Source: Bacteroidota bacterium (GTDB lineage: Bacteria; Bacteroidota; Bacteroidia; M30B66). From it: a DNA stretch of 64,000 nucleotides. The DNA lies in the NCBI GenBank assembly GCA_027490225.1, contig JAIXYK010000017.1, forward strand, positions 1 through 64,000, given 5' to 3'. Shown one piece after another: positions 51,607 through 54,806 of the stretch; the stretch's first letter is position 1; each line of letters starts with the position of its first letter. A model generated the notes under the pieces. It saw nothing but the letters and a program-made list of their open reading frames with translations. It ran no database searches and was not told where the DNA came from. Position numbers and translations under genes: made by a program.

Positions 51607-53091
51607 ATGCGCATTAAACTGATATTTGTTTTTCTTTTTGCCGGTTTTTCTGCGATTGCGGGGGAAGAGTTTATTTTATCTAAATCTATAGTCAAAGCGT
51701 ACACTTCATGTTTTAATTTTAAATTAGATGATGCAAGAGGTTATTTGTCTGAAGATAAGGTAGTTAATAAGGGCAATGCATTTCGATATTTAATCGAAAA
51801 TTATATTGATGCAATTAGCTTAATTGTTGAAGATGATCCTATTTTTTACAAAGTCGCATTATCCAGAAGATTAAAACGAATTGAAGCGTTGCAAGATTGT
51901 AATAAGGAATCTGTTTTTTACAATTATGTTTTGAGTGACGTTCACTTACAATGGGCATTCATCAGAATTAAGTTTGGCGATCAGGTTAAAGCAGTGAATG
52001 AATTAAGACTAGCTGCAAAGTATAATAAATTGAATAAATCAAAATTTCCTGCTTTTGTATTGAATGATAAAAATGATGCTGTTATTCAAGCAATTGCATC
52101 TTCAATTCCGCCAAAATTTGCATGGATTGGGCGACAAATAAATATTGAAGGGAAAATTGAATCAGCAACCGCTAAAATTGAGGAATTGTTATTATTCACC
52201 AGAATTAATCGGCAATTTTATTTCCTTCATTCTGAATTGAACTTAATTAAATTATTTATTGAATTTAATTTATCTAGCAATTTACTTGAATCGAGTGATT
52301 TATTAAAATATTTGGATGATAAAGAATTTGACTCTAATATATTGAAATTTTACTTGTCAATTAACCTTATAAAAAATGGTCAGAATAGCACAGCCTTGAA
52401 TTTGTTGAACGAAATATCAAATAATAAAAATGGAATTGAATTTAGCTATTTGAACTATTTGAAAGCTGAGATAAACTTAAATACTAAATTGAATGACGCT
52501 AATTATTTTGATGTTTTTCTTGTTAAATATAAAGGCTCAAGTTATATAAAATCAGCATTAAGAAAGAAAGCATGGATGGCGATTTTGTCTAATAATATTG
52601 ATCAATATAAGTTTTTGATGAATAAATTACTCAGTGAAGGATCTGAAAATACTGATGATGATAAACAAGCAATGTTGGAAGCTAAAAGCAAGTTGATTCC
52701 CAATTTACATTTACTATCTGCAAGACTTTATTTTGACGGAGGTGAGTATAACTTGAGCCTCAATCAACTCTCATTAGTTGATATTAAATTGCTAAGAATT
52801 GATGAAAAATCAGAGTTTTACTACAGAAGAGGAAGATGTTTGCAACGATTAAACAGGTTAGAGAATGCTCAATCCAATTTTAATAGTGCAATTGCCATTT
52901 CAAGATTTTCTAACGCATACATTCATGCAGTAGCTTGTTTTAATCAGGCTCAAATTTATGAGCAACTGCACGACAAAGTACAATCTGAGAAATTCTATAA
53001 AATGGTGTTGGAGACGAAGCTACATCCTTATAAGATGAGTTTAGATGCTAAATCAAAATCTGCACTAAATAGATTAAATTCAAGTAATTAG
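51607..53091 (+). CDS. Exported TPR-like protein
   Basis: 494 aa. Signal peptide MRIKLIFVFLFAGFSAIAG. The rest is alpha-helical and repeat-like (YFDGGEYNLSLNQL, YYRRGRCLQRLNRLENAQSN, ACFNQAQIYEQLHDKVQSEKF), consistent with TPR repeats near the C-terminus (~365-490). Function unknown. Its start lies immediately after a terminator U-tract; its TAG stop (53089-53091) lies inside the inverted repeat of the MITE-like element. Confidence 0.75.
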   Translation: MRIKLIFVFLFAGFSAIAGEEFILSKSIVKAYTSCFNFKLDDARGYLSEDKVVNKGNAFRYLIENYIDAISLIVEDDPIFYKVALSRRLKRIEALQDCNKESVFYNYVLSDVHLQWAFIRIKFGDQVKAVNELRLAAKYNKLNKSKFPAFVLNDKNDAVIQAIASSIPPKFAWIGRQINIEGKIESATAKIEELLLFTRINRQFYFLHSELNLIKLFIEFNLSSNLLESSDLLKYLDDKEFDSNILKFYLSINLIKNGQNSTALNLLNEISNNKNGIEFSYLNYLKAEINLNTKLNDANYFDVFLVKYKGSSYIKSALRKKAWMAILSNNIDQYKFLMNKLLSEGSENTDDDKQAMLEAKSKLIPNLHLLSARLYFDGGEYNLSLNQLSLVDIKLLRIDEKSEFYYRRGRCLQRLNRLENAQSNFNSAIAISRFSNAYIHAVACFNQAQIYEQLHDKVQSEKFYKMVLETKLHPYKMSLDAKSKSALNRLNSSN

Positions 53092-53342
53092 GGCCTACTT
53101 AAAAACACTCAGTCACATTATAGTGAGTTACTTGCATGTTAAAAAGAGAATCTAAAGTGCAAGGGATTTTTAGCTAATTGGCCAATTCTCTCGTACAATT
53201 AATTATTGAATATGATTGTTTTTTCGTTAGCCAGAAATACAACATCTGCTTCGTTGCCTGCGGCTCGCAGTATTAAATATACAGCTTCGCCTTATCGCCT
53301 CGCATCTGCTGCATTTCTGACTTTTTCAGTAGGCCCTAATTA
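53085..53342. mobile_element. MITE-like element with perfect terminal inverted repeats
   Basis: 258 bp between two convergent genes. Ends TAATTAGGGCCTACT (53085-53099) and AGTAGGCCCTAATTA (53328-53342) are perfect 15-bp inverted repeats; one mismatch later AAAAA matches too. TAATTA is self-complementary, so it may be a 6-bp target duplication around GGGCCTACT ends. The right half holds a second imperfect dyad (around CAGAAATACAACATCTGC / its partner near 53301-53320) and is GC-rich. No ORF, so it is not autonomous. Both flanking stop codons fall in the ends. Confidence 0.6.
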
Positions 53343-54806
53343 AAACCTTGACCCAATTGTAAAAAACAAATTATGCCTCGTAATACTTAGTTCAGCCGGC
53401 TGAACATCAGTTAAATTAGGGCTATAAGAGTAATATTGCGTTTTTTGAAATCCTAAGACATATGCCAAATCAAAAAAGTAATCATCATTTCTAAATCCTC
53501 CCCCAATGCTGAAATTATTTATTTGATTGATTGCTGTTTTGTTTAACAATGGACTACCAATCATTTGAAAACCACCTCTCAAGTATGAATCACCAAATCT
53601 AGCTTCTGCACCTATTCTTAAATTGTTGCTAATTGAAAATTTGGAAGGAATCTGTTCATTTATTTTATCAAAAATAGCTTCGTTGCTTATCAATAAATTT
53701 CTTGAATTATTTACAGTCTCGTAATCAATCGAAATAATTCCATTCTTTTTGATAATGAATGCTGCGCTCCCTGTAATACGCGCCGGTTGTCTTAATTTAT
53801 AACTATAACTAGCTTCTGGCGAAGAGAAAGAAAATTCACCAAATGAAAGTGAAGATGATAAATTAGCATTATAAGTTCTGTTGATATTGAAATCCAAAGG
53901 AATTGCTGCAGCCGCTCCTAATCTTAACCAATCAACAACGCGATAAATTGCTCCTAAATTAAAAGTTAGAGAGGTTCCTTTGTCTGTTTTATTACTTACG
54001 TAATTAAGATTGTTAAAATTAATGATTGAATCAGTTTCATTGGTTTCTGAATAGGTTCTGGTTTCATTATAAACTATTCTGCGAATTCCGATGGTAGCAC
54101 CTAAGTATAATCTATTGCTATGATTTGCGGCAAATGATATAGAAGATTGACTGAATTTTCCAGAAGATTCAATTGCATCTCTTTGCGTGGCTCCCCCGTT
54201 TATTGGACCTGAAAAGCTTGAATAGCCTAAGGTTCCATCAGGATTTCTTAAAGTATCGATTAAGTATGTTTGCCAAGCTAAATCGGCTGAATATGGTGAT
54301 GAAAATTGAAGCTTATCAGGCAAACTTGAGCCCGCTTCGGCAGCAAATGCGTTTACAATAGAGCTTTCAGTGTTTATTCCCCTAATTGTAGTCATTTGGT
54401 GAAAAGAATTAGACCTGTTAAAACCAAATGCAAGGGTAGAACTCATCCAGCCATTCGTTTTTAATCTGTTCACAGTTGGGAAATGCAAAACAAGATTTAG
54501 ATTTGGAATATTAAAATTAAATTTTCTATCTCTTGTTTGCGTTCCGTAGTAACTTGCTTTATTTGAGTAATTAAAAATTGCCAATGAGCCAGCAAATTCT
54601 GACTTTCTATAAAGACCTATACCTGCCGGATTTACTGTTGCACTTGAAAAATCCGCACCCACAGCACCCACCGCTCCACCCATTCCACTAGCATATGCTG
54701 TTCCTGGCGTACCTACTTGAGAATATCTAGCAATATCATCAAAACCTTGAGCATTGATATTGCTAGATAAAATCATAAAAAGGGCAATTAATTTAAATAA
54801 TCTCAT
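53340..54806 (-). CDS. FadL/OmpP1-like outer-membrane protein
   Basis: 488 aa. Signal peptide ends NINA-Q. The N-terminal RYSQVGTPGTAYASGMGGAV and ADFSSATVNPAGIGLYRKSEF match the OmpP1/FadL pattern (GTARAMGMGGA..ATVNPAGL). The rest is alternating beta-strand, ending in the aromatic NLFFTIGSRF, as expected for a barrel. It would import hydrophobic compounds or serve another transport role. Its TAA stop is in the right inverted repeat of the MITE-like element; 11 nt from the lipoprotein gene upstream. Confidence 0.8.
   Translation of the reverse strand: MRLFKLIALFMILSSNINAQGFDDIARYSQVGTPGTAYASGMGGAVGAVGADFSSATVNPAGIGLYRKSEFAGSLAIFNYSNKASYYGTQTRDRKFNFNIPNLNLVLHFPTVNRLKTNGWMSSTLAFGFNRSNSFHQMTTIRGINTESSIVNAFAAEAGSSLPDKLQFSSPYSADLAWQTYLIDTLRNPDGTLGYSSFSGPINGGATQRDAIESSGKFSQSSISFAANHSNRLYLGATIGIRRIVYNETRTYSETNETDSIINFNNLNYVSNKTDKGTSLTFNLGAIYRVVDWLRLGAAAAIPLDFNINRTYNANLSSSLSFGEFSFSSPEASYSYKLRQPARITGSAAFIIKKNGIISIDYETVNNSRNLLISNEAIFDKINEQIPSKFSISNNLRIGAEARFGDSYLRGGFQMIGSPLLNKTAINQINNFSIGGGFRNDDYFFDLAYVLGFQKTQYYSYSPNLTDVQPAELSITRHNLFFTIGSRF

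Follow-up and report, generated by a model that had tools for sequence, protein, structure and literature searches.

A MITE-like element with IS5-family ends at the stop codons of two convergent genes in a Bacteroidota bacterium

Short elements that share the inverted ends of an insertion sequence (IS) have been described in Bacteroidota. MITECca01 of Cardinium is about 240 bp long, carries the inverted ends of its parental IS, has no transposase and is present in many copies (PMC9769881), and the Porphyromonas gingivalis MITE, as described in the source for that element, holds a minisatellite (PMC4596501). Among autonomous elements, IS5 elements of the transpos_IS5_1 type (ISMae6; ISAcma17 and related elements) have the terminal inverted repeat (TIR) TAGGGNYTGCTGAAAA and insert at TA-N2/3-TA sites; they are about 1.63-1.77 kb long, with a transposase of about 500-570 aa.

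Here, we analyzed a 64,000-bp stretch of the genome of a Bacteroidota bacterium (contig JAIXYK010000017.1, positions 1 to 64,000; hereafter the window) that contains a 250-bp non-coding element with TIRs and insertion sites like those of the transpos_IS5_1 type. The element resembles MITECca01 in its size, its ends in common with a parental IS, its lack of a transposase, its many copies and its Bacteroidota host. However, the parent of MITECca01 belongs to the IS982 family and is intact in the same genome (PMC9769881), whereas the window element has IS5 as its parent type, which the home genome lacks by our searches. It is, like the P. gingivalis element, a Bacteroidota MITE, but we looked for a tandem repeat in it and found none, in contrast to the minisatellite of the former (PMC4596501). 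We consider it very likely that the window element is a non-autonomous MITE with IS5-family ends, of the NCBIfam transpos_IS5_1 type and ISMae6-like.

Structure and dispersal of the element

The limits of the element, its ends and its main internal structure are as follows.

53089-53338, no strand assigned: whole element, TAGGG...CCCTA, 250 bp, from TIR to TIR and by full-length alignment with 248-250-bp copies in relatives
53089-53105, + strand: left TIR, TAGGGCCTACTTAAAAA; the same ends bound IS5-family elements
53322-53338, - strand: right TIR, TAGGGCCTACTGAAAAA, matched to the left end
53229-53322, + strand: imperfect hairpin within the right module, with arms at 53229-53249 and 53302-53322

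The inverted ends have the form TAGGGCCTACT(T/G)AAAAA; the TIRs are 17 bp long with one mismatch, and the subterminal sequences are CACTCAGT and GTCAGAAATGCAGC. A preliminary description, made from the letters of this DNA, had noted perfect 15-bp inverted ends, and we located these as TAATTAGGGCCTACT (53085-53099) and AGTAGGCCCTAATTA (53328-53342); the match between them continues to 21 bp at 95%. An inverted pair of this kind is rare by chance. The window holds just one further perfect 15-bp inverted pair with a separation of at most 300 bp, which is AT-rich, and 29 of 30 simulated windows generated with a dinucleotide model had no such pair; the remaining one had a pair with a single G/C in its arm. 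The interior was also as first described: no ORF of 60 aa or longer lies inside the element, which, as is typical of a MITE, has no transposase or other coding capacity; the core (53250-53309) is GC-rich, with 52% GC vs about 33% around it; and an internal dyad is present, although it is imperfect (76%).

The home genome (3.77 Mb in 66 contigs) contains, by sequence search alone, a single complete copy and a degraded relic of 109 bp (contig C11, 74% identity). In a similarity search of 60 relatives, matches were found at 19 places in G006, 22 in G007 and 11 in G050, while G008 had one full copy and G009 fragments only; best E values reached 1e-64. G006 and G007 belong to the home genome's family and to another genus, and G050 represents a different family of the class. 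Dispersal is therefore evident from the relatives, where dozens of copies are scattered over unrelated sites and surroundings, rather than from the home genome with its single full copy, and a search for further copies, as the preliminary description had proposed, thus supports its MITE-like assignment. Copies were mostly 247-250 bp long, with some shorter or longer forms. The TIR pattern, with up to one mismatch, matched 103 times in G006 and 70 times in G007, and the reversed control matched 0 times. Of 395 genomes searched in the class, only six contained the core sequence, namely the home genome, G006-G009 and G050. Among named genomes, a scan returned exact matches in two Bacteroidetes MAGs, D1_MAG_00037 (pond) and RE-18aug17-170 (corresponding to G006/G007); a plasmid search yielded no copy of the element and viral contigs no exact match to the pattern. 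By crude ORF calling, 14 copies had a classifiable gene context (8 tandem, 6 convergent and 0 divergent), too few for a claim.

Some copies have unusual arrangements or surroundings. An 89-bp version in G006 (L064, 159-247, on contig C13) is nearly all palindrome, retaining both ends and the hairpin arms with the middle missing. At L007 (1372-1809), a copy of 248 bp and one of 187 bp stand in tandem, and TAACTA is present at the middle junction as well as the outer ones. At L061 (359-1556; G006, contig C4, 43500-46500), a gene for an AbiEii-like nucleotidyltransferase adjoins a left MITE end (Pfam match of 24.2 bits, cut-off 22.5). A small gene just upstream of it had no Pfam match, and the two genes could possibly form a type IV toxin-antitoxin pair.

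IS5-family ends and the source of transposase

Scanning the 395 class genomes with the pattern TAGGGNYTRCTGAAAAA returned end pairs 1.6-1.8 kb apart, among them seven elements of 1,627-1,766 bp (L134-L138, L142 and L146) with transposase reading frames, that of L134 being read in two frames. The three transposases tested of these seven matched DUF772 and DDE_Tnp_1_2, and scored 344-381 bits against the IS5-family model NCBIfam NF033578 (cut-off 275). The ends of ISMae6 fit the pattern at 16/16 positions, and IS5-type elements from Persicobacter, Nostoc, Alicyclobacillus and Oscillatoria plasmids have the same ends (14-16 of 16 positions when ISMae6 is included). ISAcma17 is a good match at its right end only, with one mismatch; its left end fits poorly, and its own two ends agree at 12/16 positions. 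Full transposase elements with these ends, which the preliminary description had suggested looking for, were thus found as intact IS5-family elements in other Bacteroidia and as ISMae6, and the ends of the window element are common to them.

We did not detect a match to one IS5-type transposase query (E 1e-5) in the home genome, G006-G009 or G050, nor any DDE_Tnp_1 match in the home genome (G000). Pfam DDE_Tnp_1 and DDE_Tnp_1_6 had few matches in the MITE-rich genomes, all of them without these ends. A parent IS in the same genome, which is usual and not strictly required for an IS5-derived MITE, was not found, and by these searches such an IS appears to be absent from the home genome and its closest relatives in the searched set. 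The copies in these genomes are therefore either stranded or mobilized by an undetected source, that is, a transposase that is unassembled or too dissimilar. Two TIR pairs in G006 (908 and 2,677 bp) were considered as the parent and rejected, as neither has a transposase inside.

The interior of the window MITE was found within no IS examined. In G120, a MITE (L139) and an IS (L137) have subterminal sequence in common, and an origin by deletion is apparent for L139. Together with L140 and L141 in G136 and L152 in G013, L139 is a TIR-bounded element of 233-272 bp with the same ends and another interior; judged by their sequences, these four probably represent further MITE families of the same IS type.

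Left and right halves of the copies

The copies differ between their two halves, which we separated where the right 117 bp begins and compared by global alignment.

53106-53221, + strand: left variable part, with four main types in the family; the window type is that of the G008 copy
53222-53338, + strand: conserved 117-bp module on the right, sharing 97% identity with a consensus-like sequence that was built from copies in G006, a genome of another genus

The four main left types are those of the window and G008, of G007 with some G006 copies, of G006, and of G050; besides these there are a few outliers, single or paired. The main types are mutually mostly 55-62% identical, whereas shuffled sequence gives 51% with a maximum of 57%; within the first type, the window and G008 left parts share 77% identity. 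Right parts have median identities of 79-92% between most groups, with single comparisons up to 97%, and G006 combines two left types with one common right part. Four G006 copies (L031, L045, L059 and L069) have the G007 left type, and copies of G006 and G007 reach a pairwise identity of 1.00 in each half, which suggests recent exchange, close relation or mis-binned contigs.

This conserved right module is left unexplained by simple MITE decay. We regard it as possible, somewhat short of an even chance, that the right 117 bp is a functional module under selection, for example a binding region for the transposase or a host factor, rather than ordinary MITE filler. The difference in identity between the halves points that way, as does the right-part hairpin (alignment columns 12-29 and 84-101), in which 87.1% of cells are paired vs 84.4% after shuffling. 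However, most double changes in the hairpin come from one GC/UA swap between two subfamilies, the RNAalifold consensus on the core is weak (-2.0 kcal/mol), and exchange of halves between MITE copies or the recent spread of one right half gives the same pattern; selection, exchange and recent spread all fit. The more specific proposal, that the right 117 bp is a functional cis-acting module which selection has maintained in MITE subfamilies from two bacterial families, with the remaining sequence being replaced, appears doubtful. If true, this would be a modular MITE that needs an internal site in addition to the TIRs in order to spread.

Target site and flanking genes

The element lies between two convergent genes, and the bases around it are assigned as follows.

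51607-53091, + strand: upstream gene, TPR protein, with stop codon TAG at 53089-53091
53085-53086, no strand assigned: outer TA of the TA-NN-TA target, left (flank comparison)
53087-53088, no strand assigned: left copy of the likely 2-bp target duplication, AT (NN agreement among copies)
53339-53340, no strand assigned: right copy of the likely 2-bp target duplication, AT (NN agreement among copies)
53341-53342, no strand assigned: outer TA of the TA-NN-TA target, right (flank comparison)
53340-54806, - strand: downstream convergent gene, FadL/OmpP1-like outer-membrane protein (sub-threshold Pfam match to OMPP1/FadL/TodX)

Copies occupy TA-NN-TA targets. Taking TAGGG...CCCTA as the element and pooling MITE and IS copies (n = 66), we found that the central NN was identical on both sides in 45 copies, compared with a mean of 9.7 and a maximum of 19 in 2,000 shuffles, consistent with a 2-bp target duplication. 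Some copies have a 3-bp centre, such as TA-ACA-TA at the Alicyclobacillus IS. The preliminary description had pointed to TAATTA at both outer edges as a possible target duplication, in which case the element would be GGG...CCC. These hexamers are present, perfect 6-bp repeats flank 27/74 copies (shuffled mean 4.1), and at L088 TGATTA stands on both sides. Among the copies with agreeing NN, however, the outer TA deviates on 19 flank sides while its inner partner stays TA, and only 1 deviation is shared, which fits a TA within the TIR plus a 2-bp duplication. We therefore think a full 6-bp duplication improbable; since outer-TA deviations are not copied to the other side, a duplication of the central 2 bp (sometimes 3) seems better supported by these comparisons, and TAATTA is more likely composed of target, TIR and a 2-bp duplication (AT). 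The window target is TA-AT-TA under either reading.

Both stop codons had been placed inside the element ends. This holds for the upstream TAG (53089-53091), which coincides with the first 3 bp of the element; the TAA of the downstream gene is the complement of 53340-53342 and lies outside it, in the right duplicated/target bases. When we joined the flanks with one TAATTA, the two proteins ended in ...NRLNSSN and ...TIGSRF, the same last residues as with the insert. Only the upstream stop codon changed, to the present TAG from a TAA inferred for the reconstructed empty site.

Eight relatives (L168-L173, L176 and L178) have both genes convergent and adjacent with the element absent. In four of them (L170, L171, L172 and L176), the stop codons overlap and are offset by one base, just as in the reconstructed site; in L170, for example, the sequence is TTGAATTAAAATC. 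These overlapping-stop empty sites indicate that the insertion hit a stop-codon sequence common to both genes and that both stops survived. G008 has an empty site here (L171) yet carries the window's MITE subfamily elsewhere, consistent with the element having inserted in the lineage of the window itself, as far as the compared genomes indicate. In the proposed mechanism, a transposase made elsewhere would recognize TAGGGNYTRCTGAAAAA ends and move the element in trans into TA-NN-TA, duplicating the central 2 (sometimes 3) bp. The target here would have been the TAATTA of the overlapping stops, and the insertion would have preserved the ends of both frames, so that about 250 bp now separates formerly overlapping genes.

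The earlier proposal that the insertion trimmed or redefined both C-termini draws on the upstream TAG being taken from the element's first bases, but is very improbable: both proteins end at the same residue in the reconstructed empty site (assuming a TAATTA target), alignments of the downstream protein with most homologues, those of G006, G007 and G008 included, reach its last residue (488), and half of the element-free relatives have the same stop overlap. It is just as improbable that the element is a conserved bidirectional terminator or structured RNA of the gene pair that merely resembles a transposon, as its position between convergent genes and folding better than shuffles (z -2.34) might suggest; such an origin is refuted because the relatives have empty sites, and copies elsewhere have unrelated surroundings, the Rfam search of the element gave zero matches, a consensus scan found no terminator-like site and the core consensus RNA structure is weak, as noted above.

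The window element, a MITE with IS5-family ends, is an ordinary kind of mobile DNA at an insertion site that is unusually tidy. We searched the literature for MITEs inserted at convergent stop codons, and nothing relevant was returned. With eight empty sites among relatives, the locus is a clean case of insertion, in which a preference for TA-rich targets lets the element enter overlapping stop codons with neither protein harmed. The analysis also connects IS5-type ends with a repeat family that was unannotated in metagenome genomes of Bacteroidota.
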